Under the pieces are notes generated by a model, which saw nothing but the letters and a program-made list of their open reading frames with translations, was not told where the DNA came from and ran no database searches. 40,027 nt of DNA, taken from a virus. Location: positions 1-40,027 of the IMG/VR virus record IMGVR_UViG_3300008267_000155; one strand, given 5' to 3'. The position numbers and the translations under genes are program-made. This document shows positions 2,262 through 39,380 of the stretch, in pieces; within the stretch, counting starts at the first letter, position 1; the number at the start of each line of letters is the position of its first letter.

Positions 2262-2603
2262 ATGAAACGATTAAAAGACTTATTACTAGAAAACACACGT
2301 CGACGCATCACGGAACAAAGTGTTGACCTATCAAGTTTAGAACTTGTGTTGTCACAACAAGAAGACATATTCAAGACCATGCAACAATCGTTACGCACTG
2401 TGAATTACATGGACATATCTGAAGAGGCAAAAGAGGTATTACGGAACAATGCTAGCATATTAGCTGACGCATATCTAGAATACATTGACAACACTCGCAG
2501 CATCATCGCTAGCATCGGCGATGCGGAATATTCCGAATACCAAGTAGTCAACGAAGAAACATCTACTTTGGCGCAACGCATCGAAGACGGATTAGACTAT
2601 TAA
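2262..2603 (+). CDS. Small protein with capsid-targeting-like N-terminus (113 aa)
   Basis: A 113-residue, mostly helical acidic protein of no recognised family. It begins MKRLKDLLLENTRRR, a variant of the MIRLKxxLxE start shared by many proteins in this window, with a possible prohead-protease site after Glu10 (LLLE). By analogy with T4 internal head proteins it may be packaged in the capsid and trimmed. The gene ends one base before the next, which has the same type of start, so the two are translated together. It sits just after a long noncoding region and so opens the operon. Confidence 0.6.
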   Translation: MKRLKDLLLENTRRRITEQSVDLSSLELVLSQQEDIFKTMQQSLRTVNYMDISEEAKEVLRNNASILADAYLEYIDNTRSIIASIGDAEYSEYQVVNEETSTLAQRIEDGLDY

Positions 2604-2604
2604 C

Positions 2605-3138
2605 ATGATACGATTAAAGACTTTACTCACAGAAATTTCCCTAGGCTCAATACGTCCTTATGCCACTCAATTCACTTGGACACAAGAAGGACGTGCACAA
2701 TGGGAAACACGCATCAACGCAGATGGCGAACCCATCATATTTGTATTTGTAATGTCGGATGCACGTGATGGCGGAGAATATTCATTCGCCATGATGTCGC
2801 AAGATCGTAGTCGTGAAGGATTCACTGTATCGCATGCACGTAGTGCGGCGGCAGGACACGTCAACTATCTACGTCTAATGCGAACTGCGGCGGAAGCCAT
2901 GCTAGACTTTGCACGTATATATGCTCCTGGTGCTATTGACATTACTGGAAGCGACACTACTAGTTCAACCAAGGATCTTCAAAAGACTCGTATATATCGT
3001 GGACTTATCGCATCTAATTCTGGCGCTGTTGCGGCCGCAGGATACACCATGTTGGAGCGTGGCGGCAAACTGTGGTTGGTGCGACGCGGCAATGCCGATG
3101 CATCTGGCATCAATACTCCCGATGACCCCAACATGTAA
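2605..3138 (+). CDS. Putative packaged protein with MIRLKTLLTE start (177 aa)
   Basis: A 177-residue protein whose first ten residues are MIRLKTLLTE, a close match to the recurrent N-terminal signal (possible cleavage after Glu10). The remainder is rich in Ala, Arg and Gly and looks like a compact mixed alpha/beta domain. The segment with YRGLIASNSGAVAAAGYTM hints at an acyltransferase-like fold, but I cannot show a catalytic motif. G/C content is visibly higher than in the neighbours, which suggests a different origin. It follows the previous gene after one base and is followed by two short direct repeats and a hairpin. Confidence 0.6.
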   Translation: MIRLKTLLTEISLGSIRPYATQFTWTQEGRAQWETRINADGEPIIFVFVMSDARDGGEYSFAMMSQDRSREGFTVSHARSAAAGHVNYLRLMRTAAEAMLDFARIYAPGAIDITGSDTTSSTKDLQKTRIYRGLIASNSGAVAAAGYTMLERGGKLWLVRRGNADASGINTPDDPNM

Positions 3139-3148
3139 CTAGACGGGT

Positions 3149-3182
3149 TGTGCGGACCTGAGAAGCGTTCTGTGCGGACCTG
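3149..3182 (+). repeat. 12-base direct repeat TGTGCGGACCTG
   Basis: TGTGCGGACCTG occurs at 3149-3160 and again at 3171-3182, 22 bases apart (two helical turns). It lies between the stop of the preceding gene and a hairpin. The function is unknown; a protein-binding site or a remnant of duplication is possible. Confidence 0.5.
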
Positions 3183-3193
3183 GAAGATAAACA

Positions 3194-3217: not shown

Positions 3218-3266
3218 TATACCTTTCTAACCGTTTACAACGTACTAAACCTTTTCCATTACTATC

Positions 3267-3280: not shown

Positions 3281-3290
3281 AGGAATCACC

Positions 3291-4094
3291 GTGATAAAAC
3301 TAAAAAACATACTTAAAGAGGCTGATACTACTGCGGCACATGCACGTAAACTGCGAGAAAACCACTCAGACGTATTCGATGAGATAGCTGACGAATTGGG
3401 ATTGACCCCGGAACAATTTGATTCTGCGGTGAATTCTTCTAGAGCCGAATTAGATGTTATTGAAAAAATATACATGAGTGATTCTATGACAGGTCACGAA
3501 GCTTTAGCAACTATTGCGGACATGTTAGATGTTCCGTTTGGTACTAACGAATCGGCTAAACCAGATTATATAGATGCTGATGGTGACGGGGATGAAACGG
3601 AATCAATGAAACAAGCTTTCAAAGACAAAGCAAAGAAAAAATCCGAAATGAATGAATTATCTGATGAAGAAATAGATAAGCGTTGGAATAAACCTTTGCA
3701 AAACTGGGAACGTCAGTCTTTGTCTTCAAAAATGGATATGATGCGGCAAACCTCAAATAATACGTCTGACTCTAGCAAATCTGCAGAAAAAGCTCCGTCA
3801 AAGTTTTATCAGGAAAAATTGGCTGCACTTAAGGCTCAACGCAAACAACTTGAATTTGACATGGAACAAGAAGCTGAACCAGAAGGAGGACCAGTTGCTG
3901 ATTATTATGGAGAAGCTTTGCAACACATCGACGATCAAATTGATTCAATCAAAGAAAAGATGGCTCGTAAAAATGAATCCACATTAATTACTAAAGCTGG
4001 ATTACAAGAAATGCGCGAATTGCCGTTAGAAGATAGAATACTACGTAATCTTAAAGGTAATGACTATATTTTAAGAGAAACATTTAAAAAATAA
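3291..4094 (+). CDS. Putative internal head/scaffold-like protein, GTG start (267 aa)
   Basis: A 267-residue, highly charged helical protein. It starts (from GTG) MIKLKNILKEADTT, one of the clearest copies of the recurrent N-terminal signal, with a likely protease site after Glu10. Residues about 92-110 read PDYIDADGDGDETESMKQA, an acidic DxDGDxxE stretch like short segments in T4-like phage head or scaffold proteins, possibly calcium-binding. The second half is Lys/Glu/Gln-rich coiled coil. The charge pattern suits a core or packaged protein. A late-promoter-like motif is upstream and a strong terminator downstream, so it is probably a single-gene late unit. The role is inferred from composition. 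Confidence 0.6.
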   Translation: MIKLKNILKEADTTAAHARKLRENHSDVFDEIADELGLTPEQFDSAVNSSRAELDVIEKIYMSDSMTGHEALATIADMLDVPFGTNESAKPDYIDADGDGDETESMKQAFKDKAKKKSEMNELSDEEIDKRWNKPLQNWERQSLSSKMDMMRQTSNNTSDSSKSAEKAPSKFYQEKLAALKAQRKQLEFDMEQEAEPEGGPVADYYGEALQHIDDQIDSIKEKMARKNESTLITKAGLQEMRELPLEDRILRNLKGNDYILRETFKK

Positions 4095-4227: not shown

Positions 4228-4338
4228 ATGGCAGCAAAAACAAGAACAAACAACGTAAAAATTCATGCTAAAACTAAAACAAGTCGTAGCAAAAATGCAA
4301 CTAAATACGTTAAACCATATGTAGCACAAGGCAGATGA
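4228..4338 (+). CDS. Very small basic protein (36 aa)
   Basis: An open frame of 36 codons starting ATG at 4228 after GGAAAAAGGTA, a good ribosome-binding stretch, and ending TGA at 4336-4338. The product starts MAAKTRTNNVKIHAKTKTSR and ends YVKPYVAQGR. It is strongly basic (many Lys, Arg, His) with no acidic residue, like a small nucleic-acid-binding protein. Its stop overlaps the next start (ATGA), so the two are translationally coupled. It lies between a terminator/promoter pair and the lysozyme-like gene. The basic composition, ribosome-binding site and coupling argue that it is real. Confidence 0.7.
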   Translation: MAAKTRTNNVKIHAKTKTSRSKNATKYVKPYVAQGR

Positions 4339-5543
4339 TACGTTTAAAACAAATATTAGAATCTAAAATCACCGAAACCCCGTTGGCGGATATTTTATCT
4401 GGCGATGGTGATACTAAACAATACAATGTTTTATTTATAGGCGATATTCAAACTTCCGATAATAATAGTTATGCAAACAATCTTCTAGAAGAACAATATG
4501 TAACGGGAGACATCGTAGCAAAGTCTGATTTAGATGCAATTGCATTAGCTAAAGCAATTAGTCAACTTGCTAAACCAGATACATATGATATTATAAGTAT
4601 TATGGTTACCAATTCGATTACTAAAACTGTTAACAGAACAACTAGAATTCTTGAAGAAATTTTTAAATTTGCAAAACGTAGATCTAATAAACTTATCGTA
4701 ATAACCAATCCGATTGATTTTACAATTGAAACCGATAAAGATCCAGAAGTAAAAGATTTACAAGAATTATCCGAATGGATATCTTCTCAAAACATAGCAG
4801 ATGATGTTATTGATATATCTAATTTTAGATCTTCAAATTTTACAGATGGTGTTGAATTAAATTCAGATGGTCACAGAGAAATTTCAGAACAATGGAAAGA
4901 TATAGTAAGAGAATATAATTTCGAACCAATAATCGCAGTCAATCAACCAAAAATCAAACCAAAAAAAGTTACATATTCCGATATTGTATATGTAGATTCT
5001 TCTGATATAGTATCCGGTGCTAATTTTTCTGATAGTTTAGAAAATCAAGCTACTAGATTGTTAGCTAGATTTGAAGGATTTTCTTCTACGCCAGGTTGGG
5101 ATGTTAATGCTTGGAGAATTGGACATGGAAGTAGTACTATTACAACAGCAACCGGCGATGTGGTGCGTTTAGGTAACAATCGCACAATACGTCCTGATAT
5201 TGTTATAACTAAAGAAGATGCAGCGAGAGATTTAAAACGTCGTCTCGAAACTGAATTTATTCCGCAAACTTTACGATCTATTGGTTCTGTAGATCTACCC
5301 AATGGTGTTATTGCAGCATTAGTGTCTGTTGCATATAATTATGGTTCGTTACCTAGTTCTATAAAAACTGCAGCGCAGGAAGGCGATATACAAGCTATTG
5401 CAGATGCAATACGAGCTAGAGAAACTGATAATTCTGGAATAAATAAAAAACGAAGAAACAAAGAAGCTAACTATGTATTAGCAGCAGCTGGAGAAACTGT
5501 TGAGGAATCAATACGTAAAACAAAATTAAAAAATAAAAGGTAA
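4335..5543 (+). CDS. Bimodular lysozyme-like protein with SGNH-like N-domain and packaging-type start (402 aa)
   Basis: 402 residues in three parts. Residues 1-10 (MIRLKQILES) match the recurrent N-terminal signal. Residues about 30-190 look like an SGNH hydrolase: VLFIGDIQTS at 32-41 stands where block I (GDSxS) should be, and SDGH at 177-180 fits block V (DxxH). The nucleophile serine is replaced by Ile38, so the domain may be inactive or only bind glycan. Residues about 240-400 resemble a GH24 (T4-type) lysozyme: Glu247 in FEGF, Asp256, RIGHGSST at 261-268 and a helical segment ALVSVAYNYGSLP. It would cut peptidoglycan. The packaging-like start suggests delivery with the DNA rather than use as a lysis enzyme, and no holin is adjacent. 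Domain calls are moderately sure. Confidence 0.65.
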   Translation: MIRLKQILESKITETPLADILSGDGDTKQYNVLFIGDIQTSDNNSYANNLLEEQYVTGDIVAKSDLDAIALAKAISQLAKPDTYDIISIMVTNSITKTVNRTTRILEEIFKFAKRRSNKLIVITNPIDFTIETDKDPEVKDLQELSEWISSQNIADDVIDISNFRSSNFTDGVELNSDGHREISEQWKDIVREYNFEPIIAVNQPKIKPKKVTYSDIVYVDSSDIVSGANFSDSLENQATRLLARFEGFSSTPGWDVNAWRIGHGSSTITTATGDVVRLGNNRTIRPDIVITKEDAARDLKRRLETEFIPQTLRSIGSVDLPNGVIAALVSVAYNYGSLPSSIKTAAQEGDIQAIADAIRARETDNSGINKKRRNKEANYVLAAAGETVEESIRKTKLKNKR

Positions 5544-5546: not shown

Positions 5547-5921
5547 ATGTTTGAAAAATTAATATCAACACTTATGGCATCTCGAGATCAAGCTCATGTA
5601 TTTCATTGGCAGACAACTGGAGCAGGTTCATTTGCTGCACATATGGCATTGGGTGCGTATTACGAAGCGATACCAGATATGGTTGATGCTTTAGTAGAAG
5701 CATATCAAGGTAAACACGGAATCGTTAACGGATATGTTCCTGCGGAAAAATTCGATGAATACAGTCAAGCAACGGCGCTTAAATATTTCAAAGCTTTGGC
5801 AACATATGTTGATAGATCATACAATAAAATACCTAAAGAAGATACTAACATCATCAATCAGTTAGACGCATTTAAAGATTTGATTTATACTACTATTTAT
5901 AAACTTGAAAACCTACAATAA
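5547..5921 (+). CDS. Ferritin-like (Dps/DUF5856-type) protein
   Basis: A 124-residue all-helical protein. The N-terminal SRDQAHVFHWQT (12-23) with His17, His20 and later His32, Asp44 and Asp47 resembles the metal-binding helices of Dps-like ferritin-family proteins and the phage family known as DUF5856. Dps proteins store iron and protect DNA. Whether this one oxidises iron cannot be told from sequence, and no DNA-binding tail is visible. It starts three bases after the lysozyme-like gene and ends one base before the next, so it belongs to the same operon. That position among packaging-type proteins makes a role inside the virion possible but unproven. Confidence 0.65.
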   Translation: MFEKLISTLMASRDQAHVFHWQTTGAGSFAAHMALGAYYEAIPDMVDALVEAYQGKHGIVNGYVPAEKFDEYSQATALKYFKALATYVDRSYNKIPKEDTNIINQLDAFKDLIYTTIYKLENLQ

Positions 5922-6911: not shown

Positions 6912-7709
6912 ATGAAAAAAACATTGAATCAACGAGTAGAAACTACATTAAAATTGATGCTTCGAGAACAATCGGAGTTAGAAACTGACAATGCTAGTAA
7001 AGATGCCGTTGATTCGTTGTTTACTCCAGCAGAAGAAAAGTTTTTAGGAAAATTTGATGCCTATGGTAGCACGCATCTAGGCGTCATTTATTCCATTTCT
7101 GATATCGGCGTACGCGAATTTCTAGCTAGAAGCGGCAAAGAATTCAATTTGAATCCAGGAATATTGCTAAATTTGTTAAGACAAGAAGTAATCAAACTAG
7201 TTCCTTATACTGGATGGGGTCGTAATAATGAGTACACCATAGAATTACAGCTTAGCTTGGATGATGTTAAAGGTTTAGGTGCTGCTGACAAAGAAAAAAT
7301 TGAAAAAGGCAAAGGTGGAGGTGCGGAAGGCGGAGCTCCAGGCCCAGGAGGACCAGGTCCAGAAGTAGCTTGGGTAGTAAAATATGGCGACGTTTTGCGA
7401 GAATCTGCAATAATTGCACAAAATTTGCTTGTTGACGGTAAGTCTAAATCAAAATCATCAGACAAATCTGAAAAAATTAAAAAAACAGTAAAAATTATTG
7501 ACGAAGTACCGGCAGAGTATTTAAAAGATTTGAAAAAAATCATTAATCGCATGAAAAATGCACCAAAAACTGCTTCGGAACGCATCGACATGATAGTAGA
7601 CGTAATTTATGCACTTCAAACTTCATTAAAAATGAAGCCAGCAGAGATACGCAAGTCATTTGACCACTATAAAAAGAAAAAATCTTTGCAAGAATTCATA
7701 AAAAGATAA
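6912..7709 (+). CDS. Putative packaged/structural protein with Gly-Pro linker (265 aa)
   Basis: 265 residues. The N-terminus MKKTLNQRVETTLKLMLREQ is a longer variant of the recurrent signal, ending LMLRE with a possible protease site after Glu19. Residues about 30-125 form one unrecognised domain. A Gly/Pro/Ala linker rich in GG and PGPGGPGP at about 135-150 separates it from a Lys-rich helical C-terminal domain (about 160-265). The linker and two-domain layout suit a virion protein. It starts one base after the H1-like gene, so both are likely made together. I cannot name its function. Confidence 0.6.
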   Translation: MKKTLNQRVETTLKLMLREQSELETDNASKDAVDSLFTPAEEKFLGKFDAYGSTHLGVIYSISDIGVREFLARSGKEFNLNPGILLNLLRQEVIKLVPYTGWGRNNEYTIELQLSLDDVKGLGAADKEKIEKGKGGGAEGGAPGPGGPGPEVAWVVKYGDVLRESAIIAQNLLVDGKSKSKSSDKSEKIKKTVKIIDEVPAEYLKDLKKIINRMKNAPKTASERIDMIVDVIYALQTSLKMKPAEIRKSFDHYKKKKSLQEFIKR

Positions 7710-10620: not shown

Positions 10621-12690
10621 TTAAGTTCTTATTATCGATTGAGTACGATAGTTATATTTTGCCAACGGATTTACGTTTTGTAAATAATATCGATCGGTTA
10701 AATTTAATTTCTCAAATTGTTCTGGCGTTACGTTTGGATATTGAGATGCCCATTGCGCACGTGTCATTGATTGAGCCCCGGTGCTAGCAGCAGCGCCAGC
10801 TTGTGTTGCGGAAGTACCTTTTGGTATTCCCGTTTTCCATATGTCTAATAAAGCTAAATATTCTTTTTCTAAGGTATCTGGAGTTAAATTACGTAACATT
10901 TTAATTGCTTCTTTTGGACTAAGTTCTCCCATACGAACTAAATACAATATTTTATCAATTTCTCCTTGAGATCTTACTACGCATGCGCGAGTCATGTTTT
11001 CAAGTTCCGTTTTAGTTAAAGTGATTCCGTACTTCTCTAAAGCTTTTAATCCTTTGTCAGTACCTAGCATTTCTCTCCATTTTTTGAAGCTAAATCCGTT
11101 TTTCCATAATGCACCCCATCCGTCTTTTGCGCTAAATCCTAGTATTGAAGTTAATAATCCTTTTCCAGATTTATAACTAGCATATACCGCTAATCCGCTT
11201 AGTGCAAGAGTTCCCCACAATACTATATCCGATGTACCTACAATACTTTCTTCAGCTATAGCAGCTGCACGATCTTCGTTAGCTTGTTGCAATGCTTCGT
11301 CATAACTCCATTCTTTTTCTTCAAGTAATTTTATCGTATTAGTGTTTTTGAGTATTGAAGATAATTTTAAGTCAGTTGCAACGTTTTCAAATCTAACATA
11401 TGCAGCTGGTGCTTTAGTCGAAGCATTAATTTTAAAATAATCAGCTATGTCTTTAGCCGCTTTTTTAAACATTGCGTCTGCTTCTGCCGCCGATGGTTTA
11501 GTTGCTAATCGCAATGCTTTATCGGTTGCACTTATTACCTGCGTTTGTGTAATAAAATCTATAATAGTTTTGCCGACGTAACTATTAGATGTCTTTGATC
11601 CAAAAGAAATAAGAGATTTTAAAAACTCTTTTTGATTGGCTATCGTCAAATTTTGAAATTTTTCCACAGCTTTTTTTGCAATGTTTGAATTTTTTAATTG
11701 TTTAACAAATTCTCCCATTATTTTTGTAACAATTTCAACTTGAGACTTACTAAAAAACTTTACTGCTGCCAATTCTGCTGGTAACAATTTAACTGCTACG
11801 GCCGCGCCTTTTTCCGTAACCTTTGCCGCCAAATCTCCTAATTTCATCAACGCTTTTTGACTTAATTTTATAGCACCGCCGCCACTAACAGTAGGTATAG
11901 CAGCAAACGCGACACGCATTCCTGCATTATAGAAATCTCCTTTAAAAGCAAATACAGATGCATTTATTAAATCTACCACAGAAGATGCCACCCACCCTAT
12001 GAATGGAAGTACATCTAAACTTAGAGATACTAAATCTAAAACATCATTCATATTAACGGCCATTGCAAATCCTTTCGGACCAAACATGCCATGAGTTACA
12101 TCGACATGTTGTTCAATGTCTGCACTACCTCTTCCGTAAATTAAATCTAGATATTCGTCTTTTTTCGTTTGCGGCATCCATGATTGTCGATAAATCCAAT
12201 TGGCTAGTTTTTTAGTAATAGCAGCATCTCCGCCAGGATCCGAATCGCCAGGTGATAATCCTCCAAAATAATTGTTACTTACTAAGTAAGAAGCTAACGT
12301 TTTTCCGTATCGTTTTTGAAAATATTCTTCTACAAATTCCCAATCTTCTAAATTTTTTATTGATGTGATTTGATCATATGCTTCTTGTTCATCATCATAT
12401 ATATATCCTTTTGAATTGTATATGATATCTGCAATGTCTGCTAACATTTCTTCTCTTGTACGAGCCAATGGATTTTTCTTAAGAGCCGATGGTTTGACAA
12501 CTTTTGTGGCATCTTGTCCAATTGCTTTTTCTATTCCTGCTAATCTAGGATCTAATTCGTATTCGCCATCCTTATTCGGCCCGGTTTTGGTAAGATAATT
12601 ATCTATAGAAGATTTGTATCCAGCAACTCGTTTCATTATTGGAACATCATCTTCATTCAACAAGTCCCTAAGTTTTATGTTTTTTGCCAT
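10621..12690 (-). CDS. Large putative ejected protein with hydrophobic segments (689 aa)
   Basis: 689 residues. The start MAKNIKLRDLLNEDD is a variant of the recurrent N-terminal signal (LLNE, possible cleavage after Glu13). A strongly hydrophobic stretch at about 215-270 (LVSLSLDVLPFIGWVASSVV, then a second helix pair ending SGGGA) resembles the pre-toxin or membrane-inserting segments of polymorphic toxins. Another hydrophobic helix lies near 495-515 (IVLWGTLALSGLAVYASY). The rest is helical and Ala/Lys-rich. I suggest a head-packaged protein that enters or crosses the host membrane with the DNA, like the internal core proteins of podoviruses in role only. No enzyme motif is visible. It is a monocistronic reverse gene with a late-type motif upstream. 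Confidence 0.6.
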   Translation of the reverse strand: MAKNIKLRDLLNEDDVPIMKRVAGYKSSIDNYLTKTGPNKDGEYELDPRLAGIEKAIGQDATKVVKPSALKKNPLARTREEMLADIADIIYNSKGYIYDDEQEAYDQITSIKNLEDWEFVEEYFQKRYGKTLASYLVSNNYFGGLSPGDSDPGGDAAITKKLANWIYRQSWMPQTKKDEYLDLIYGRGSADIEQHVDVTHGMFGPKGFAMAVNMNDVLDLVSLSLDVLPFIGWVASSVVDLINASVFAFKGDFYNAGMRVAFAAIPTVSGGGAIKLSQKALMKLGDLAAKVTEKGAAVAVKLLPAELAAVKFFSKSQVEIVTKIMGEFVKQLKNSNIAKKAVEKFQNLTIANQKEFLKSLISFGSKTSNSYVGKTIIDFITQTQVISATDKALRLATKPSAAEADAMFKKAAKDIADYFKINASTKAPAAYVRFENVATDLKLSSILKNTNTIKLLEEKEWSYDEALQQANEDRAAAIAEESIVGTSDIVLWGTLALSGLAVYASYKSGKGLLTSILGFSAKDGWGALWKNGFSFKKWREMLGTDKGLKALEKYGITLTKTELENMTRACVVRSQGEIDKILYLVRMGELSPKEAIKMLRNLTPDTLEKEYLALLDIWKTGIPKGTSATQAGAAASTGAQSMTRAQWASQYPNVTPEQFEKLNLTDRYYLQNVNPLAKYNYRTQSIIRT

Positions 12691-12816: not shown

Positions 12817-13473
12817 ATGAAAAAGTTAATTTTTGTTTTTGGTATACTAATTACCGTAACGGCTTTTGGACAAACTGCAAAATTCAAATTAACCGATACA
12901 ACGGGTAGATGGAATACGGGTAATGATTATTTAGATTCATTAAAACAAGAATTCATCCAGGAAGAAATTGTTAAACAATTAAATGCAATTAGAGTAGCAG
13001 ACGAAATGAAACCTTTAGTATTAGATACGGGATTGCGGCCTGCGGCCATTCATAATGCTACATACAATGCTTGGTGTTTTAAAAATAAAATTTATCAGCC
13101 AACAGATCCGAAATGTATCATGACGCACGAACAATACGTCGATATGCCAAATTTTGATGAAATACCAGAACCATTTCAAAGAATTAAACTTTTAGATCGT
13201 AGTAGATTTCAATCTATGACTGAAGAATTAACAGAAGTGGCAATTTCAAATATTCAAGGCACGGATACTTATCAAAAGAGAGTAACTCACGTTTTAAATA
13301 ATTATAAAGCATGTTATGATGGTCATTGGAAATCTATGACAAAAAATACAAAATGGGATGCTATTTATGTTTATTTTGACATTAATTATTCAGATAATTA
13401 CGATTCGCAAAATGCTATTGTGTATGTAATTCTTGGAAGTTATGCAGATGGTTCTTGGGAATCTGATTTTTAA
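12817..13473 (+). CDS. Secreted CAP/SCP-domain protein (218 aa)
   Basis: 218 residues. A signal peptide covers residues 1 to about 18 (MKKLIFVFGILITVTAFGQ, cleavage before or near Gln19). The region at about 54-84 (QLNAIRVADEMKPLVLDTGL and following AAIHNAT) fits the start of a CAP/SCP domain, with His79 in the conserved position, and GHWKSMTK with IYVYFDINY later fits the second conserved segment. CAP proteins are secreted; their activities vary. The protein would be exported to the host periplasm or outside during infection. It is a single-gene unit with a strong host-type promoter and a terminator, in opposite orientation to both neighbours, as in an accessory (moron) gene. Confidence 0.7.
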   Translation: MKKLIFVFGILITVTAFGQTAKFKLTDTTGRWNTGNDYLDSLKQEFIQEEIVKQLNAIRVADEMKPLVLDTGLRPAAIHNATYNAWCFKNKIYQPTDPKCIMTHEQYVDMPNFDEIPEPFQRIKLLDRSRFQSMTEELTEVAISNIQGTDTYQKRVTHVLNNYKACYDGHWKSMTKNTKWDAIYVYFDINYSDNYDSQNAIVYVILGSYADGSWESDF

Positions 13474-13532: not shown

Positions 13533-14957
13533 TTATTCTGCTCTTGGTAATACTGTAGGCGGTTCGGTTGAATAATCAACTATGGTAACTTTAGTTGTAT
13601 CAATAGTAGCACTGCCGCCTGATATCGTAACAAAATCTTCAAATGTACCAGTACCTTTTGCAGCTAATTTTTGTACTAAATCAGAATTAGCTGTATATAT
13701 GTCATTCATAATTTTTGTAACTTGTTCCTCTGTATATCTTCCGCAAGATCTTAAAAATACATCCAATTGCGGATTATTATAATAATCATTTATTGCAAAT
13801 CCGCGTAAGCCTTGAAAATTCATAGGAGTCATTCCGTTTATATCGTAAATAAAATTTGCACCGGGATATGAAGTACGATCGCCTTTAGTACCTGCTTCAT
13901 CCTTAGCACCAAACGTACCTTCGAAACTAAGTGGATCTGTTTGTCCGTATGTAATATTTATGTCACAGCTATATGCTTTATTCGGAGTATCATCTGATGA
14001 ATAACCAATTCCGGTTTTTGAAGAACCACCTAATTCTGCGTTCATCGCGCCTATTGCTTGAGGAGCAATCATTCCTTCGCTAGTTTCATACTCAACTTTG
14101 AATTCTAAATATATATCTGCTTTCGTTACAATTTCTTTAGTAGTTTGTTTGCCGGTAATATCAACGTTGATAAAACGTAAATCATCAGCTTTGAATCCTC
14201 CTTGTAAAACTTTAGAAGATGTTTGATATGTTACATTAGTAATTCCTGCTTCTTCTAATTTTGTTTTAAGAAATTCCATGATAGAATTAGCACGTTGTTT
14301 AGCTAACCACTCATTTCCTGCATAAGAATTTTCTGGTTTCGTAACATCTAATCCATCATATGGCGTCCCGGGATGATCTAATGCCATCGGCGTACCATTA
14401 CTATAATAACCTGACATTTTTGGTGCAGCCGTTGTAGCAGTGCCTGTTATTTTAATTTTTATAGAATCTGAATCAGATAGACTATTTTGTATCGTAGCTA
14501 CTATTTTATTTACTTCTTGATCTAGATTTCCTTTGGTAGATGGAGACATTAATCCTTTATCTAAAGAAACCATGTTATTATAAAATTTCGCATCAAGTTT
14601 CATGGTTTCTAACGGAGTGTCAATAGTTTTAGTTTGTTTTCCAAATACAACTACACCGGATCTCTCTGCATCTCTTCTCCATTCATCCCAACGTTCTTTT
14701 TGTACTATTTTAGTTTGTATGTCATCGATAGCTGCAGCATTGGCCATTGATCTATTTGTTGCAGATTGATCCTGAGCCATTTGTGCCTTTTTTATTTGCG
14801 TCTGCAAATCTTGCATTCGACTTGCAGCTGATTGTCCTTGCGACCCAGTATCTTCAAAAAGCAATTTTCTTTGTATATTGTTAACGGTAGATTCGTTGAT
14901 GTTTTTAGTACCGAATCTAAGCATATTTTCTGCTAAAATTTTATCCAATGATTTCAT
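13533..14957 (-). CDS. Packaging-signal protein with OmpA-like domain (474 aa)
   Basis: I chose the ATG at 14957 (MKSLDKILAENML) rather than one 13 codons upstream, because the N-terminus then matches the recurrent signal and AAAGAAAACCTGT precedes it. 474 residues. Two possible protease sites: after Glu10 (ILAE) and after Glu35 (LLFE). Residues about 12-50 share MLRFGxKNxxES with two other reverse genes. A helical region follows, then a domain at about 165-270 with IKIKITGTAT, NEWLAKQRANSIMEFLKTKL and FINVDI, the layout of an OmpA-like peptidoglycan-binding domain. The C-terminal third is unassigned. It probably travels in the head and meets the host cell wall. Confidence 0.65.
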   Translation of the reverse strand: MKSLDKILAENMLRFGTKNINESTVNNIQRKLLFEDTGSQGQSAASRMQDLQTQIKKAQMAQDQSATNRSMANAAAIDDIQTKIVQKERWDEWRRDAERSGVVVFGKQTKTIDTPLETMKLDAKFYNNMVSLDKGLMSPSTKGNLDQEVNKIVATIQNSLSDSDSIKIKITGTATTAAPKMSGYYSNGTPMALDHPGTPYDGLDVTKPENSYAGNEWLAKQRANSIMEFLKTKLEEAGITNVTYQTSSKVLQGGFKADDLRFINVDITGKQTTKEIVTKADIYLEFKVEYETSEGMIAPQAIGAMNAELGGSSKTGIGYSSDDTPNKAYSCDINITYGQTDPLSFEGTFGAKDEAGTKGDRTSYPGANFIYDINGMTPMNFQGLRGFAINDYYNNPQLDVFLRSCGRYTEEQVTKIMNDIYTANSDLVQKLAAKGTGTFEDFVTISGGSATIDTTKVTIVDYSTEPPTVLPRAE

Positions 14958-15000: not shown

Positions 15001-16293
15001 CTATGAATCTAATGTACCTTCCTTGCCGGTACCTTTTGTCCAATCTGTAACTTTCAATAAAATGTTTAAATCATCGTATTCGTATTCTTTTCCTTCGAAG
15101 TATTTTCCATTTTTCATGGTTCCGTTAAACGCAATATCATATTTATTTCGTTCTCCTTCTGGAATTTCTTCTTCAGAGACAATTTGACTATGATCTGGTT
15201 TGAAATACAATCTAACTCCTCCATTTTTAAGTACTTTAGTCGAAACCGGTTTTGGTGGCGTTTTTCCTTCACCAATTGATACATTACATGCTAATTCGGC
15301 TGACCAAAATGTTGGACCTAATGGTGCATATACTTCGAAAAAATATGTTGCTTTAGGATCATCTAAAGTAGTTGAAATGTATTCTCCAGCACGTTTTATC
15401 TGTCCGTCATATCCGTTAGGTTTAGTTTTATTTAATTCATCTAGTAATTTTCCAAAATCTACTTGAGCTGCAATTGGGTCAGCCGATACATATCCAGAAT
15501 CATAAATTACAGTAGGTACATTGTTTAATACTTTGGTAATAACAGCTCTATCCGGTACATAGTATGGTTGAAATGTAATGGATATTGTTCCGGAAGTTGG
15601 TTCTAATTTAGTACGATATGCAATTGGATCGCCAGCTAAACCATTTGCTTTCATAGCAGCGCCACATTTAGTTAATTCAATTTTAGCATCGCTATATGCA
15701 GGTGCTGTGTATTTAGTTGCATTAACATTTACTGTTTCTTTGTATTCACCAACCGTCGTATTTGAATCTTTATTATACGTAAGAATTGGAACGGTTGCTT
15801 TTGCTGATTTTTTAGATCCATTACCATTACCCGTTTTAGTGATAGTAACTTCTGCTGGCAATTTAACAAATTTCTTGATCATGGATTCGATTGCTTCTGC
15901 ACGTCGATCTGCCAATGTCTGATTGGATACGGTTGCTCCGTTTGAATATGAAAAATCTACTTGCTTTTGATCCCAACCTTTTGGTACAAGTTTAGTAGCA
16001 GCAGTTCCTGAATTTGCTTCGGCTGCAATAGAAATATTTCCAGTTTTTAATTTTCCGGATTCAACTGCACTATTCAACGTGTTGATAAAATCTTGAAGAC
16101 TAGGCGTTAATTGTTTAACATCTGATATCGAATCAAATGATGTGATTCCAGTTTGTCCGGATTTTATTGGCAACACGATGTTATCCGGAAAACTATCTTC
16201 AAATTCATATATGGTAGTTCCGGTAGCAGTTTCGGCTTCTATCAAACGTCGGCCGACAGGAGATTCTAATATTAGGTTTTTCAATCGTATCAT
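15001..16293 (-). CDS. Packaging-signal protein with OmpA-like domain (430 aa)
   Basis: 430 residues starting MIRLKNLILESPVGRRLIEA, the longest copy of the recurrent signal, with possible protease sites after Glu10 (LILE) and Glu21 (IEAE). Residues about 86-170 (ISIAAEANSG, then NQTLADRRAEAIESMIKKFV) look like an OmpA-like domain: strand, then an N-x-x-L-x-x-x-RA-x-x-[IV] helix. This is a diverged relative of the domain in the gene just downstream, with a 43-base gap between them, so they may share a transcript. The rest is beta-rich. A late-type motif lies directly before the start (TTAATAAATATTT on the + strand at 16295-16307). Confidence 0.65.
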   Translation of the reverse strand: MIRLKNLILESPVGRRLIEAETATGTTIYEFEDSFPDNIVLPIKSGQTGITSFDSISDVKQLTPSLQDFINTLNSAVESGKLKTGNISIAAEANSGTAATKLVPKGWDQKQVDFSYSNGATVSNQTLADRRAEAIESMIKKFVKLPAEVTITKTGNGNGSKKSAKATVPILTYNKDSNTTVGEYKETVNVNATKYTAPAYSDAKIELTKCGAAMKANGLAGDPIAYRTKLEPTSGTISITFQPYYVPDRAVITKVLNNVPTVIYDSGYVSADPIAAQVDFGKLLDELNKTKPNGYDGQIKRAGEYISTTLDDPKATYFFEVYAPLGPTFWSAELACNVSIGEGKTPPKPVSTKVLKNGGVRLYFKPDHSQIVSEEEIPEGERNKYDIAFNGTMKNGKYFEGKEYEYDDLNILLKVTDWTKGTGKEGTLDS

Positions 16294-16398: not shown

Positions 16399-16953
16399 AT
16401 GAAAAAATTAATTTTTATCGTTACGGTTGCATTTTCTTCAATTGTCAATGCACAGTGTTATACATCGCTTACACAATCACAAAATAAATTGTTAGATAAA
16501 TATGGGATAGACTACGCAGGTTTACAAACCAGATATATCATGTCTACAGACCGCATAAATAATATTACAGATTCAGCAACAAAAAGTGGCATGATGGAAT
16601 CTTACGCCAAATTTATTAAATGGAATAATGGCAGACTTGAAGTATTACCAGATACGGCGCATATTCTAGAAACTGCCTCTAATTTCATAAAGAATAAAAC
16701 TTTAACCGAAGAAAGTAAAACTACAAGGTTTATAATGACTGAAGAAAGCAAAATATTAAATTATCTCTATATTGATATTAATCAAGATGATATAAAATCA
16801 ATTGAGATAATTGAAATCTATCATTCTAATATGAAAGAATGTTTACGTATTACTCATATGATATTTGTAGAAAATTCTAAAGGTTTTTGGTATGATGTGA
16901 CATATGATAACAATGATATTACATTAGATTGCCCGTTTTGTACGGTTCCATAA
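16399..16953 (+). CDS. Secreted hypothetical protein (184 aa)
   Basis: 184 residues with a signal peptide, MKKLIFIVTVAFSSIVNAQ, cleaved near residue 18-19 after an Ala-x-Ala-like site typical of Bacteroidota. A cysteine follows at once (AQCYT), but the region lacks a proper lipobox, so I do not call it a lipoprotein. The mature part has cysteines in LDCPFCTVP at the end, possibly forming a disulfide. No family is recognised. It is in the same arrangement as the other two secreted proteins: host-type promoter, single gene, terminator, and a reverse packaging-signal gene on each side. Confidence 0.7.
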   Translation: MKKLIFIVTVAFSSIVNAQCYTSLTQSQNKLLDKYGIDYAGLQTRYIMSTDRINNITDSATKSGMMESYAKFIKWNNGRLEVLPDTAHILETASNFIKNKTLTEESKTTRFIMTEESKILNYLYIDINQDDIKSIEIIEIYHSNMKECLRITHMIFVENSKGFWYDVTYDNNDITLDCPFCTVP

Positions 16954-17042: not shown

Positions 17043-17660
17043 TTAAGCAGCTATTAAATCATATACAGTTTTAGCAGAGCCTTTTAATAATGGTCCTAAT
17101 GCTGCAAAATTCTTAGATTCTTTAGCAGCCGCAATCGTTGTAGCTAATTTTGCTTTTTGTCCGTTATAATGAGTTGATATAACTTCCGAACTTACTCTTT
17201 CATAATAATTGTTGATAGAATATGCTGCATCTGTCACGGTATCTTGTTTATTCAATGCTGGACTTAAGTCTTGTCCTAGTTCCAAAGTATTTTGGTTTTC
17301 AAATACGGATCCATTATTTACATATCTTATATCCCCGTAATACGCCGTAACTGGAAAACTAATAGGACCAAAATTTACTGACTGTAGTTTATAAATACCA
17401 ATAACGTATGCAAAACCTAGTTCCTTCCCGGTTTTATCTGCAGCGTATATTAGATTTGCTGTAGAAAACTGTGGGCCGTCTGTTCCTTTTAAAAATTCTG
17501 CAGCAAAAAACTTTCTAGCTGATTCCATTCCTGCAGAATCTAATTCTTTTAATGTACTTTCTGTTAATAAGTTTTGCAATCTTCTTTTATCAGACTCAGA
17601 CAAATTTTTAGGTCCAAATCTCAACATGTTTTCTGCTAAAATGTTTTTTAGTCGTATCAT
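17043..17660 (-). CDS. Packaging-signal protein (205 aa)
   Basis: 205 residues starting MIRLKNILAENMLRFGPKNL, the archetype of the signal. Likely protease sites follow Glu10 (ILAE) and Glu34 (LLTE), which would release a mature protein of about 170 residues. The mature part is beta-rich (LGFAYVIGIYKLQSV, TAYYGDIRYV) and unrecognised. The first 25 residues and the upstream leader are shared with the gene at 18309-18944, so the two leaders arose by duplication, while the mature parts show no obvious similarity. The promoter-like motif is TATTTATTT about 30 bases upstream. Confidence 0.65.
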   Translation of the reverse strand: MIRLKNILAENMLRFGPKNLSESDKRRLQNLLTESTLKELDSAGMESARKFFAAEFLKGTDGPQFSTANLIYAADKTGKELGFAYVIGIYKLQSVNFGPISFPVTAYYGDIRYVNNGSVFENQNTLELGQDLSPALNKQDTVTDAAYSINNYYERVSSEVISTHYNGQKAKLATTIAAAKESKNFAALGPLLKGSAKTVYDLIAA

Positions 17661-18308: not shown

Positions 18309-18944
18309 TTAAGGTTTAGTTGGTGTAGTTGTTGCTGGAGCAGTTGTTGTAGGCGCTGCAGCTGCGGGAATTGCTGCTCTTGCAGTTTTGACCCATGCTA
18401 CATTTGCAAACACATCATTTGCTTTATTGTATTTTTGATTGCTCATTGCATCTACTAAATATGCTACATATCTAGAAACATATGTAGGTCCACCTGCGCT
18501 ACCATAATCAGCTGTTTCGAAATTATTAGAACCGGTACTTAAACCCGAAAACGTTACGCTTTGTTTTGCATCAAGAACGACAAAATTAATAACGGATATA
18601 TAAGACGCATAAATTACAAACGTACAACTAAATGCTGCGTTTTTAATTTTAATAGTTACTCTATCTTTCTTAGGATCTGTTTTACCTTTAGGGCCAAGTA
18701 AGTATACGTCTTCGATTACAGGATCGCCGCCGGTAAATGTTAAATTTGTAGTATATGTTGTAGTTTTCATATTACCGGGATTGTCTCCAGAAGACATACT
18801 AAATTTTAATCCTGTAAATGGCGTTGCATCGCCTTGTGCCAATCCGGTTACTTGTTCCATTAACCGTTGTAAATTACGTTTTTCGGATTCAGATAAATTT
18901 TTCGGTCCGAATCTAAGCATATTTTCTGCTAATATATTTTTCAT
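18309..18944 (-). CDS. Packaging-signal protein (211 aa)
   Basis: 211 residues starting MKNILAENMLRFGPKNLSES, the recurrent signal without its first four residues. The likely protease site is after Glu7 (ILAE). Residues 8-30 match those of the 205-residue gene. The mature part is beta-rich with no family recognised, and the C-terminus is an Ala/Thr/Pro-rich tail (PAAAAPTTTAPATTTPTKP), probably flexible. The leader upstream is a 30-base exact repeat of that of the 205-residue gene. It would be expressed late and packaged if the signal works as proposed. Confidence 0.65.
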   Translation of the reverse strand: MKNILAENMLRFGPKNLSESEKRNLQRLMEQVTGLAQGDATPFTGLKFSMSSGDNPGNMKTTTYTTNLTFTGGDPVIEDVYLLGPKGKTDPKKDRVTIKIKNAAFSCTFVIYASYISVINFVVLDAKQSVTFSGLSTGSNNFETADYGSAGGPTYVSRYVAYLVDAMSNQKYNKANDVFANVAWVKTARAAIPAAAAPTTTAPATTTPTKP

Positions 18945-25588: not shown

Positions 25589-26113
25589 ATGGATTCAAAA
25601 ACATTGATAAAAGCACTAAAAATTGCCGTGCGTGAAGTTATTAAAGAAGAATTAACCGAAATTCTTCGCGAAGGGTTACAATCTACAATTACTGAAATGA
25701 AACAACCAAAACAACAAGTTAAAGTAGATACAAATAAAACAATACGTGTTGAACCAAGAATGGTAAATGAAGGTGGTAGGAAATCTAAACCGCAATTTTC
25801 TGAAAATAAATGGGCATCCGTATTAAATGAAACAGATGCATTGGTAGAACAAGGTCCAATGGCTATGAATAGTTTTAAAGAATTAATGGCAGAAGGTATG
25901 GATGAAATTCGAATGACATCTCAAGATGCTATGAATTTTGGATCAATGCGACAAAACATGAAAGAAGCAATCGGTATAACTCCGGCAGCTCCTAAAGTAA
26001 TGGAAGATCCGGAAACTGGAAAAGTATATGAAGTTGATCCGGTAGTTCAACAAGCTATGACTCGCGATTATTCTGCGTTGATGAAAGCAATAAATAAAAA
26101 GAAAACTAGTTAA
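25589..26113 (+). CDS. Hypothetical protein upstream of gp25 (174 aa)
   Basis: 174 residues from the ATG at 25589 (MDSKTLIKALKIAVREVIKE). A longer frame reaching 25535 exists, but its first 18 codons would overlap the previous gene and a promoter motif. The N-terminal helix (IAVREVIKEELTEILREGL) is amphipathic, and the rest is Met/Glu/Pro-containing and probably loosely folded. Such genes are found next to gp25 in T4-like marine phages. Its stop overlaps the next start by one base. Confidence 0.6.
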   Translation: MDSKTLIKALKIAVREVIKEELTEILREGLQSTITEMKQPKQQVKVDTNKTIRVEPRMVNEGGRKSKPQFSENKWASVLNETDALVEQGPMAMNSFKELMAEGMDEIRMTSQDAMNFGSMRQNMKEAIGITPAAPKVMEDPETGKVYEVDPVVQQAMTRDYSALMKAINKKKTS

Positions 26114-26553
26114 TGGCATTTGTTTATGAAAATATAGCTCAAGTCGTTGATTCTGTCAATGAAATTGGATTAGGAGTAAAATTCACTAATGCAGAGTCTA
26201 TTTTCAAAACTATATATACAGTACGAGAACAAGCCAAAGAAAACTTAAAAACTTTGTTATTTACTCGAATCGGCGAACGGTACATGCAGCCAACATTCGG
26301 CACTAATTTATTGAATTTATTGTTTGAACCAAATACCATACAAATTAAAGAAGATGTTTCGGAAATATTAATTGATCCAATCAATGTATGGTTACCATAT
26401 ATTTCAATCGAAAATATCAATGTAATAACGGCAGAAGAAGATCCAACACTTCCGCATCAACTTTCAATTACAATAACATATAATATTGAAAATTTTAGTA
26501 CTGACAGTATAGTTGTATATGCAAATAACGACAATACAATATCAATAGTGTAA
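26113..26553 (+). CDS. Baseplate wedge protein gp25
   Basis: 146 residues. The family signature LLFTRIGERYMQPTFGTNLL lies at 48-67, followed by LLFEPN, as in T4 gp25 and its relatives in other contractile systems (TssE). The protein initiates sheath assembly at the baseplate in those systems. Length fits the family. It is coupled to the preceding gene by a one-base overlap, and the gp6-like gene follows two bases later, the usual order. Confidence 0.85.
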   Translation: MAFVYENIAQVVDSVNEIGLGVKFTNAESIFKTIYTVREQAKENLKTLLFTRIGERYMQPTFGTNLLNLLFEPNTIQIKEDVSEILIDPINVWLPYISIENINVITAEEDPTLPHQLSITITYNIENFSTDSIVVYANNDNTISIV

Positions 26554-26555
26554 GC

Positions 26556-28436
26556 ATGGAAACAAAAAAAGATGTATCATATTTAGGCAAAGATTTTGGA
26601 CAATTTCGAAAAAATCTAATAGAATTTACTAAACAGTATTTTCCAAATTCTTACACAGATTTTAACGAATCTTCTCCTGGTATGTTGTTTATAGAATTAG
26701 CTTCATATGTTGGAGATGTACTTTCATTCTATGCTGATACTAATTTACGAGAATCGTTGTTAGAACGTGCTACAGAACGAGGCAATGTTTTTGATTTAGC
26801 ACGAGCATTAGGATATAAACCAAACAATTCCGTAGCAGCACAAGTTACATTGGATGTATTTCAATTAGTTCCAGCTGCCGGATCTGGCGCATCTGTTGCT
26901 CCAGATTTTAACTATGCACTGTCTATCAAATCGGGAATGCAAATAAAACAACAAAATGGAGCTGCTGTATTTAGAACTTTGGAAGATGTAGATTTTGGAT
27001 TTTCATCTTCATTCAATCCTACGGAAGTAACTATTTATGAGACTAATACCACAACTAATCAACCTACGTATTATTTACTTAAAAAATCAGTAAAAGCTGT
27101 AGCTGGTCAAATTAAAACTGCTACATTTACATTTACATCGCCAGTTGCGTATGATAAAATAGTGTTACCTGAAACAAATATTGTAGAAATTATTTCTGTA
27201 ACAGAAACCGATGGAGATAATTGGTATCAAGTTCCATATTTAGCACAAGATACCATCTTCGAAGATGTGCCAAATCTTTTAGAAAATGATCCGGATTTAG
27301 TTGGATATCGTTCTTCGGCGCCAACGCTTCTTAAAATGAAAAAAACATCAAAACGTTTTGTTACTAGATTACGAAGTGATAATCGTTTAGAACTTCAATT
27401 TGGTGCAGGTATTTCTGACAATAATGATGAAGAAATAATTCCTAATCCGGATAATGTTGGCAATGGTTTAGCTGGCTTTAGAAGATCTGTAGATATTGAT
27501 ATAGATCCTTCTAATTTTTTATATACACGAGCTTATGGACAAGCTCCAGCTAATACTTCGTTAACAGTAACATATACGATAGGTAACGGTATACAAGACA
27601 ACGTACCCGCAGCTACTTTGAAAACTATTAATTTTATAGAATATAACGACGATATTAATTCTTCAAATAATGCTGGTTTAGTAAATTTTGTAAAATCATC
27701 TGTTGCTGTTACAAATCCAAATCCGGCTTCGGGAGGTAAGACTGCGGATACGTTAATTGATATCAAAAACAACGCATTAGCTAATTTTGCGACACAAAAT
27801 CGTTTAGTTACAAAAGATGATTACATTATTCGTGCTTATTCAATGCCATCAAAATACGGAAGCGTAGCTAAAGCATACATAGTTCCCGATGATCAAATTA
27901 CTCAACAAGAACTAGTACAATCTCGAATACCAAATCCATTAGCATTAAACATGTATGTATTAGGATACGATCAAAACAAACAATTGGTAGCTGTTAATAA
28001 TGCAGTTAAAGAAAATTTAAAAACGTATTTAGATTATTATAGAATTTTAACGGATGCTGTAAATATTAAAGACGCATTCATAATCAATATTGGAATTAAT
28101 TTTGAAATTTCAGTTTTGCCAAATTACAATACCAATGCAGTTAAACTTCGTTGTATTGACGATCTTAAAAATTTATTTAACATAGATCGTTGGCAAATAA
28201 ATCAACCTATTATAAAATCCGATGCATTGACTACGTTAGCTAATGTACCCGGAGTACAATCTGTAATTGGAGTTGAATTTACTAATTTATACAGAACCAG
28301 CGATGGATATTCAGGAAATATTTATGATTTGACTACGGCTACAAGAAATGGAGTAATTTATCCATCTTTAGATCCTAGTATTTTTGAAATAAGATTTCCA
28401 AATCAAGATATCCGCGGCAAAGTAACATCTTTTTAA
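26556..28436 (+). CDS. Baseplate wedge protein gp6 (baseplate J-like)
   Basis: 626 residues. The N-terminal part has the gp6/baseplate-J pattern: FIELASYVGDVLSFYADTNL followed by E-x-ATERGNVFDLARALGY-P, and the C-terminal part (YRILTDAVNIKDAFIINIGI, then LTTLANVPGVQSVIGVEF) matches the family's wedge core. In T4, gp6 dimers form the inner ring of the baseplate. Size agrees with the T4 protein (about 660). It is followed 10 bases later by another structural gene, with AAAGGATAATAA before its start. Confidence 0.85.
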   Translation: METKKDVSYLGKDFGQFRKNLIEFTKQYFPNSYTDFNESSPGMLFIELASYVGDVLSFYADTNLRESLLERATERGNVFDLARALGYKPNNSVAAQVTLDVFQLVPAAGSGASVAPDFNYALSIKSGMQIKQQNGAAVFRTLEDVDFGFSSSFNPTEVTIYETNTTTNQPTYYLLKKSVKAVAGQIKTATFTFTSPVAYDKIVLPETNIVEIISVTETDGDNWYQVPYLAQDTIFEDVPNLLENDPDLVGYRSSAPTLLKMKKTSKRFVTRLRSDNRLELQFGAGISDNNDEEIIPNPDNVGNGLAGFRRSVDIDIDPSNFLYTRAYGQAPANTSLTVTYTIGNGIQDNVPAATLKTINFIEYNDDINSSNNAGLVNFVKSSVAVTNPNPASGGKTADTLIDIKNNALANFATQNRLVTKDDYIIRAYSMPSKYGSVAKAYIVPDDQITQQELVQSRIPNPLALNMYVLGYDQNKQLVAVNNAVKENLKTYLDYYRILTDAVNIKDAFIINIGINFEISVLPNYNTNAVKLRCIDDLKNLFNIDRWQINQPIIKSDALTTLANVPGVQSVIGVEFTNLYRTSDGYSGNIYDLTTATRNGVIYPSLDPSIFEIRFPNQDIRGKVTSF

Positions 28437-37619: not shown

Positions 37620-37622
37620 TGC

Positions 37623-38159
37623 ATGATACGTTTAAAACATTTATTACGAGAAATGTCTGATTCGGATATTCGTCGTTGTTTGGATAAAATTCAAAACAAA
37701 CAATTCAAACTTATAGCACAAGGAGACAACGGCCGAGTTTATGAAATCAACGATGAAGACAAAGTATTTAAAATTACCAAAGAACAAGATGAATATGAAG
37801 TAGCACGTAATATCGTGAATCGTTATACTGAATTTACTACGTTTATTCCTGTTTATTACGTTGATGGTAAAAATATGTATATCATGGCAAATGCAGAACA
37901 ATTACCCGTACGCATGAAACGAGAAATAGATTTGTTTATGCAAGATTTTGCCGTATATGCACGGGGCGAAGGTGGAGAAGTTTCCATATTTGATTTTTTA
38001 GATGAAACGGATTCTATAGATCCTCGTTTAGATAATTTTTTAAATGCTCTCAAAACCGACGTTAATAGGATTGGAATACCGGAATTTGATTTAGATTTAG
38101 ATTTTCGATCCGATAATGTCATGACGTGGAACGGAAATTTAGTATTAGTTGATTGGTAA
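37623..38159 (+). CDS. Kinase-fold-like protein with packaging-type N-terminus (178 aa)
   Basis: 178 residues, beginning MIRLKHLLREMSD, a clear copy of the recurrent signal with a likely cleavage after Glu10. The rest has the order of a protein-kinase/aminoglycoside-kinase fold: a glycine loop LIAQGDNGRVYEI at 30-42, KVFKIT at 47-52 with Lys50 as the ATP-binding lysine, a Glu in the following helix (Glu59), hinge YIMANAEQL, a catalytic-loop-like DFRSDNVM with Asp160 and Asn165, and VLVDW ending at Asp177, in place of DFG. The protein stops there, so the usual C-terminal lobe is missing. If active it would phosphorylate a host target soon after entry. It could also be a degenerate binder. Confidence 0.6.
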   Translation: MIRLKHLLREMSDSDIRRCLDKIQNKQFKLIAQGDNGRVYEINDEDKVFKITKEQDEYEVARNIVNRYTEFTTFIPVYYVDGKNMYIMANAEQLPVRMKREIDLFMQDFAVYARGEGGEVSIFDFLDETDSIDPRLDNFLNALKTDVNRIGIPEFDLDLDFRSDNVMTWNGNLVLVDW

Positions 38160-38171
38160 TATTTATTATAT
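38158..38171 (+). promoter_or_regulatory. Late-promoter-like motif next to a start codon
   Basis: AATATTTATTATAT lies across the previous stop and directly precedes the ATG at 38172. Confidence 0.45.
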
Positions 38172-39380
38172 ATGAAACAGAACCTATTAGAACGTATTAT
38201 TAGAACAATGCTTTTTGAACAAAGCGAAGTTACTCCGATTGAATATGATCCAGAAGATATCCCGGTAAAAATTACATTGATGAATGGTGCCGATAAAACA
38301 ACTGAAAGATCGGAATACGAAGCTGCAGGTGCGGTATATGGATTTGATGTAAAAGTTATTGCAAAAAAATTCAAACCGAAACAAGAACCCGGCACGGATA
38401 AACAAAAAACTAAATTACCGAAAGTACGTGCTTCTGCAGATGTTTTATTTAAATCTATTAATGATACGTTAAAACAACCACAATTTGCTAAAGCATCGAG
38501 TATGTTAAACAACAATCATAATGTGTTGATAAGTGGCGATTTACGACCATCTGCTAGAGTTTTTTCTTTTCGATGTTGGGTATTTGACCGTGAATTTTTT
38601 GCTAATCAAACTGAATTGTTTTTAAAGAAAGATACAACAACTAGACCCGAAGATAGTGTACAAATATTCGTACGAACCCCCGAACGATTAGGCGATTCTT
38701 CAATAAATAAATTTGAAAATGGAGAATATTATGCGAAACAGTTGTTACTAAACAAAGGTTTAAATCGACAAAATGTAGATCCAATTGGATTAAAACAATA
38801 TGAAGAATGGTACAACAAATTAAAAAAAATTAATATTACATTGCCAACCGTAGATTTTACAAAAATAGATATTAGCAAATTACCAGAAGCTCCCGTTGTT
38901 GAACCGGATGCTCCAATTGAAAAAATATATTCTGTCGACATGGGTGGTAAAGATGTAGATCTTTTTAGTAAAATGGAAAATGAAGAAATAACAGTTATTT
39001 TTACATTATTAGCAGATAAAGTTTTAAGTAAAGTTACAAAAACGTTTTTATTTACAGGAGATATATTAGATGATAAATATGAACAAGATATAATTCAATA
39101 TGTAGGTTCCGTAACAGATCCGGTTACGATGAATAAACTATTTATTGGAACGATACAAGCTGAAGCTTATAATTCCGTTACTCTAGAATTAGAGTATCGT
39201 TTTTGGCAAGGAACAATTACTGATTTTAAATTTTGGGAAGAAGCCGGAGGCATAATGAAAGATTACCTAGTATCGGGAGATGTAGAAAATGGAGTCTTTG
39301 TAGATTCAGCAACGATAACGAAGCCGAATGGAAAAACTAGTACTTGGAAAGAATATATAGATTGGAAAAAATCTAATTAG
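38172..39380 (+). CDS. Putative packaged protein (402 aa)
   Basis: 402 residues. The start MKQNLLERIIRTMLFEQSEV is a longer variant of the recurrent signal (MLFE, possible cleavage after Glu16), like the one at 6912. The mature part is Lys/Glu-rich with alternating helices and strands and no recognised domain. A Pro-rich linker (KLPEAPVVEPDAPIEKIY) near residues 236-253 divides two domains. It follows the kinase-like gene by 12 bases and may share its transcript, so the two could be co-packaged. Function unknown. Confidence 0.55.
   Translation: MKQNLLERIIRTMLFEQSEVTPIEYDPEDIPVKITLMNGADKTTERSEYEAAGAVYGFDVKVIAKKFKPKQEPGTDKQKTKLPKVRASADVLFKSINDTLKQPQFAKASSMLNNNHNVLISGDLRPSARVFSFRCWVFDREFFANQTELFLKKDTTTRPEDSVQIFVRTPERLGDSSINKFENGEYYAKQLLLNKGLNRQNVDPIGLKQYEEWYNKLKKINITLPTVDFTKIDISKLPEAPVVEPDAPIEKIYSVDMGGKDVDLFSKMENEEITVIFTLLADKVLSKVTKTFLFTGDILDDKYEQDIIQYVGSVTDPVTMNKLFIGTIQAEAYNSVTLELEYRFWQGTITDFKFWEEAGGIMKDYLVSGDVENGVFVDSATITKPNGKTSTWKEYIDWKKSN

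Follow-up and report, generated by a model that had tools for sequence, protein, structure and literature searches.

Capsid-targeting sequences (CTS) have been known since the work of Mullaney and Black in 1996 (cited in PMC9391042). In the T4 CTS, residues 4 and 7 serve targeting, and residues 8 and 10 govern processing (PMC9026906). The internal proteins of T4 are injected, and at least some of them counter host defence (PMC9026906, PMC9391042). In the giant phages phiKZ and SPN3US, the N-terminal propeptides of packaged proteins are cut by the prohead protease at x-x-E, and identical starts occur in two diverged paralogues (PMC5694885). Encapsulins take up cargo by a loading peptide that is usually C-terminal and binds the encapsulin shell; a peptide of this kind was ruled out for the system described below, since its tags are N-terminal and the shell of the relatives is gp23.

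The DNA analysed here (the window) is a whole IMG/VR record of 40,027 bases and represents a fragment of a T4-like myovirus, being placed among these viruses because of its gp25-like and gp6-like baseplate wedge genes (Table 1). Unrelated genes of the window share a short N-terminal tag, which very likely is a capsid-targeting system of the T4 type with a wide cargo list (probability about 0.86); packaging, cleavage, and injection are inferred. Among viral contigs, 395 related stretches were found, and the largest close relative was G001 (159,977 bases). The nearest cultivated relative by gp6 was Microcystis phage Mel-JY01 (54% identity), followed by Flavobacterium phage vB_FspM_immuto (hereafter immuto), the gp6 of which is 41% identical to that of the window. 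The gp6 search of bacterial and archaeal genomes gave a single match, one archaeal MAG contig, and the host of the window virus is unresolved. That contig (L368, NZDU01000002.1), from a MAG labelled Candidatus Pacearchaeota, encodes a phage gp6 homologue with 49% identity and is probably phage contamination of the bin. No head genes were recognised in the 40 kb window, the protease and scaffold being seen only in relatives; the head was therefore studied there. The window further contains an endonuclease gene at 19047-20069 (phrog_8420, E 3.7e-38) and, adjoining a tagged lysozyme gene, an untagged gene for a Dps-like/starvation-inducible family protein at 5547-5921 (phrog_858, E 6.7e-20). Three forward-strand genes (12817-13473, 16399-16953, and 17791-18258) with signal-peptide-like N-termini are interleaved with reverse-strand tagged genes; their products are likely to be exported, as inferred from sequence alone.

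The first-pass annotation had listed twelve tagged starts, seven of the MIRLKxxLxE type and five described as related. All seven were present, and three of the related ones (12690, 14957, and 18944, all on the reverse strand) also held, being recurrent tag forms in relatives. The starts at 6912 and 38172 were weak, which leaves ten of the twelve. The claim that the bodies share no family was upheld: past residue 24, no significant mutual BLAST similarity was detected (best E 0.29), and the significant BLAST matches among the tagged proteins of the window covered only the first ~50 residues of 13533, 17043, and 18309. The gene with MKSLDKILAENMLRFGTKNINE likely begins at the ATG of 14957 rather than at the TTG of 14996. 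The product of gene 4335-5543 has a phage-lysozyme domain (Pfam Phage_lysozyme, E 1.2e-8). Starts resembling MKQNLLERIIRTMLFE and ending in LxEQ were found in G001 (46184) and G003 (55015).

Table 1. Tags and baseplate genes located in the 40,027-base window.
Position	Strand	Feature	Gene	Remarks
2262..2291	+	Tag MKRLKDLLLE	2262-2603 (113 aa; body not assignable to a known family)	Kept in relative G005
2605..2634	+	Tag MIRLKTLLTE	2605-3138	Conserved body family (IGxGSxxPY) begins directly after E10
3291..3320	+	Tag MIKLKNILKE, GTG start	3291-4094	Tagged family of 10 members
4335..4361	+	Tag MIRLKQILE	4335-5543	E at 9, not 10; same tag in G005
6912..6968	+	Weak candidate MKKTLNQRVETTLKLMLRE	6912-7709	E at 19; outside the T4 register; weakly similar
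12652..12690	-	Tag MAKNIKLRDLLNE	10621-12690 (689 aa)	Tagged family of 6 members
14892..14957	-	Bipartite tag MKSLDKILAENMLRFGTKNINE		Recurrent tag form in relatives
16264..16293	-	Tag MIRLKNLILE	15001-16293	Second site RLIE at residues 16-19
17595..17660	-	Bipartite tag MIRLKNILAENMLRFGPKNLSE (begins MIRLKNILAE)	17043-17660	Third site NLLTE after the tag
18888..18944	-	Bipartite tag MKNILAENMLRFGPKNLSE	18309-18944	Recurrent tag form in relatives
26113..28436	+	gp25-like and gp6-like baseplate wedge genes		PHROG matches, E 1.5e-12 and 6.6e-22
37623..37652	+	Tag MIRLKHLLRE	37623-38159 (predicted small kinase-fold protein)	Residues invariant in 16 homologues
38172..38219	+	Weak candidate MKQNLLERIIRTMLFE	38172-39380	E at 16; weakly similar

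The shared N-terminus of the window is a real, non-random feature. When the nine residues after Met were compared with no motif assumed, 19 pairs among the 50 window N-termini had at least 5/9 identical residues, whereas internal Met windows gave 0.06 and shuffled N-termini 0.12 such pairs on average. The same comparison in G001, G009, and G011 yielded 53, 39, and 71 pairs, respectively, versus about 2-4 by chance. Of the 50 N-termini in the window, 6 obeyed a register taken only from the T4 capsid-targeting literature (hydrophobic 4 and 7, I/L at 8, E at 10; PMC9026906), where chance predicts 0.08 (binomial p 1.8e-10); the other window tags were shifted by one to three residues. In G001, 13 of 211 N-termini fitted (0.23 expected, p 5.6e-19). 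The two cultivated relatives gave only a weak result in the register test, and G004, a fragment, did not reach significance. A host secretion or membrane signal is very unlikely: although Lys/Arg ahead of Leu/Ile is reminiscent of how a signal peptide begins, the tag has no hydrophobic stretch and carries a conserved Glu at position 10, and the signal-peptide-like starts at 12817, 16399, and 17791 differ from it.

Codons at most tag positions followed background use, with a bias seen for ATA at residue 7 and AAA at residue 5, and no shared DNA was found upstream of the tagged genes. Because synonymous codons are largely unconstrained, the tag is selected as protein. A DNA or RNA element overlapping the start codon, such as a translation start context or a recombination seam, would account for the position at gene starts and the ATA bias, and recombination that exchanges 5' ends could disperse it; however, this explanation is largely refuted by the background codon choice and the lack of common upstream DNA, and both GTG and ATG starts occur, which makes it very unlikely. 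In the kinase-like family of gene 37623, residues M1, I2, R3, L4, K5, L8, and E10 are invariant in 16 homologues, i.e., 7 of 10 tag positions versus 32 of 168 body positions (p 0.001), and the stretch directly after the tag is variable.

Several observations indicate that the tag is an added part and likely a removable one, its cleavage being inferred and not shown. In the AlphaFold models of the 37623 and 2605 proteins, residues 1-8 had a pLDDT below 50 and the body was ordered. The best PDB match of the 37623 model was a minimal kinase (E 1.7e-4, TM about 0.42), and its kinase fold is a model-based prediction, with no kinase activity shown; the modelled 2605 body fold had no significant PDB match. 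A tagged superoxide dismutase (SOD) aligns to cellular SODs from its residue 17 onto their residue 6; therefore, a cut after E10 would leave a protein of about native length. In the 2605 family, one protein (L206) has a different sequence in front; its internal EEIVTE|VGEGSVKPY lies at exactly the position that the tag end LLTE|IGxGSxxPY occupies in the homologues.

At least 120 stretches of viral contigs matched a degenerate DNA pattern encoding MI[KR]LKxxLxE. Since 78 of the 79 distinct DNA matches had no more than 30 open codons upstream and only one had more, the motif marks gene starts. The longer form AENMxRFxxKN occurred in 109 stretches of the whole collection and lay within the first ORF residues in 57 of the 58 distinct cases examined, on many different bodies; the remaining case was cut by a contig end. 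When all loci were gathered, 354 distinct tagged ORFs fell into 163 body clusters, so that at least 163 clusters are tagged. With one representative per cluster, the tag consensus was M-I-K-L-K-[ND]-[IL]-L-x-E, although the search patterns had partly fixed tag positions. A second [LIV]xE was present in 51 of 53 bipartite tags. Seven MIKLxxxLxE genes form a single run in G011 (165621-168703). In cultivated phages, the bipartite-tag search returned only chance internal matches, in cyanophages, and the tagged kinase-like and 2605-family bodies had no match in cultivated phage records.

Pfam annotation of 150 representatives revealed phage lysozyme, tail lysozyme, M23 peptidase, Fe/Mn superoxide dismutase, RNase_T exonuclease, zeta/AAA_33 P-loop kinase, DRAT-like ADP-ribosyltransferase, and cupin domains, along with many unknowns. 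An S77 'tagged protease' in this list was rejected as an ordinary protease with an N-terminus that merely fits the pattern. Descent of all tagged genes from one ancestral family, with bodies diverged past recognition, would agree with three window genes being alike over about 40 N-terminal residues and with some families always being tagged. However, this is very unlikely, as it is contradicted by the domain assignments, which place the bodies in unrelated folds (SOD, lysozyme, exonuclease, P-loop, and kinase-like), and the same body family may carry different tag forms, either short or bipartite (cluster 1). The window virus and a large group of uncultured aquatic T4 relatives carry the same short tag, presumably removable, on many unrelated proteins; its most likely, inferred purpose is the loading of these proteins into the head along with the DNA. 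As a separate observation, L151 (7287-8345), L124, L140, L185, and L099 encode basic proteins that start with the tag and are built of several modules, their Zn-finger-like and Lys-rich stretches being set apart by multiple LxE sites; these products might be polyproteins cut into several internal head proteins.

The first-pass annotation had placed a prohead protease outside the window, and this held for relatives, where the enzyme was searched for and found; it was not found in the 40 kb fragment. An S77 prohead protease was present in six of eight relatives, in nine of 11 long contigs picked by the tag alone (the two lacking it being 67-kb and 80-kb fragments), and in seven of nine contigs with the RMQKLAGI class described below. 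The protease of the relatives aligns with T4 gp21 (PDB 5jbl, E 9e-22). The cleavage site had been given as I/L-x-x-E and is better written I/L-x-E (P3, P1), residues 8 and 10 being those that govern processing of the T4 CTS (PMC9026906). Most protease N-termini contain [IL]-[NTSA]-E near residue 20, a site of the same kind as the [IL]-x-E of the tag, and one lies close to the N-terminus of T4 gp21 as well (PMC9026906). The arms of gp23 have [LI][VI]xE shortly before the mature domain, with V/I at P3, slightly unlike the tag.

The protein in the gp22 position, just upstream of gp23, ends in ...[LIV]xE..R[FWM]xKLAG[IL] (13 proteins of the first set). RMQKLAGI occurred in at least 75 distinct cases; of the 75 examined, 60 formed the very C-terminal end of the protein in the scaffold position, 14 were N-terminal on cargo (within 15 residues of the protein start), and one was elsewhere. 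gp23 was directly downstream in 47 of the 55 C-terminal cases with at least 600 bases following. All 14 N-terminal cases had [ILV]xE right behind LAGI and were followed by unrelated bodies, and 11 had a hydrophobic-x-E/A site before it. The RMQKLAGI tag class equals the scaffold C-terminal peptide, which is suggestive of a shared binding site, the binding itself being inferred; this is not shown for the MIRLK dialect. The window's MIRLK dialect had no match to the scaffold C-terminus, RMQKLAGI being the only class that clearly matches. The resemblance of the bipartite tag of the window clade (ILAENMRRF) to ILSEEFKRM of the RMQKLAGI class is merely suggestive. The C-terminus of T4's own gp22 showed no resemblance to KLAGI.

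In immuto (MW353175), genes 25061-25456 and 111675-112139 (L088 and L090) have N-termini of the RMQKLAGI class, which resemble the peptide at the C-terminus of the phage's own scaffold and precede an LxE site; the two such genes of immuto begin MKKQILSEQF[KR]RMQ[FK]LAGIITES. A third N-terminal dialect, FDLKKFLVENKLTxNSKLLxE-like, was observed on at least four immuto genes (1803, 103806, 117631, and 118632). The 104-aa product of immuto gene 112261-112575 is homologous to a tagged family (63% identity); its annotation as tRNA(Ile2) agmatinyltransferase is likely wrong.

It remains conceivable that the tag addresses proteins to another phage structure (tail, baseplate hub, or infection compartment), the S77 protease being incidental. 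In favour of this, some tagged genes adjoin tail genes (37623 and 38172), and several tagged proteins are lysozymes, which occur in tails. However, the tags end in sites that match the [IL]xE of gp21 and are similar to those in gp23, the scaffold C-terminal peptide itself serves as one tag class, and tagged genes are not confined to the tail block but occur throughout the genome on either strand; this alternative is considered unlikely. The capsid-targeting reading, proposed in the first-pass annotation together with cutting by the prohead protease, is supported because the protease is encoded in relatives, the T4 register fits, the bodies are diverse, and both the [IL]-x-E sites and the scaffold peptide match. 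Scaffold binding, packaging, cleavage, and delivery are still inferences, and no virion proteomics exists for any member. The further claim that the cargo is injected with the DNA is likely by analogy with T4, without virion or infection data.

According to the capsid-targeting model, the amphipathic tag would bind the scaffold core or the inner shell of the prohead during head assembly and bring the attached protein in. A prohead protease of the S77 family would then cut after the Glu of I/L-x-E at the tag end, the longer form often offering a second site; the mature protein would be released and the tag would leave. The freed proteins may remain in the head beside the DNA, probably to be ejected into the host, where they would act early on the envelope, stress, nucleic acids, or defence. 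A bolder reading, which seems a shade more likely to fail than to hold, is that uncultured aquatic T4-like phages operate a general protein-delivery system whose cargo families number in the tens to hundreds and include enzymes of stress, envelope, nucleic-acid, and signalling functions. The N-terminal loading peptide would, in some lineages at least, copy the peptide by which the scaffold C-terminus binds the shell or core, the maturation protease would free scaffold and cargo alike from this peptide, and the dialects would differ between lineages, each matched to the lineage's own scaffold. If the capsid-targeting reading is true, the cargo of an uncultured T4-like phage could be listed from its sequence alone, whereas such knowledge has until now covered only a few T4 proteins; a phage-packaged superoxide dismutase, kinase-fold protein, and lysozymes would be indicated. 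Moreover, it would provide short sequences as candidate packaging tags in Bacteroidota phages, and recognition of the prohead core by the CTS would become testable through the scaffold-like tag.

No paper in the open literature was found to contain the tag strings literally (subscription literature and preprints were outside reach), and capsid-targeting text searches of the same literature returned T4, P1, and giant-phage work, none of which describes the present system. Within the open literature searched, the tag dialect and how widely it is used are new, as are the bipartite form and the scaffold-like class. No homology to T4 IPI-III was detected for the ten window bodies by Pfam and PHROG scans, and no packaging data were found for the tagged proteins of immuto.

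Compared to phiKZ and SPN3US, where the propeptides mostly exceed 100 residues, the present tags are 10-36 residues long and widely shared. Immuto has a T4-like head module and several N-termini designed alike, among them two MKKQILSEQFRRMQKLAGIITES-type starts and others that are MENFDLKKFLVENKLT-like, whereas its tag dialects are different and the products are annotated as hypothetical proteins. The present system resembles the T4 CTS (IPI, IPII, IPIII, and the Alt propeptide) in being a ten-residue N-terminal propeptide with hydrophobic residues at 4 and 7, I/L at 8, and E at 10, in being common to unrelated, variable bodies, and in the S77 protease, here encoded by relatives of the window virus. 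It differs from the T4 CTS in the form MI[KR]LK[ND]ILxE, in the number of tagged genes (about 13-20 per large genome versus a few in T4), in the often bipartite structure with a second LxE, and in a cargo that includes recognisable enzymes, and some relatives use a peptide like the scaffold C-terminus as the tag.
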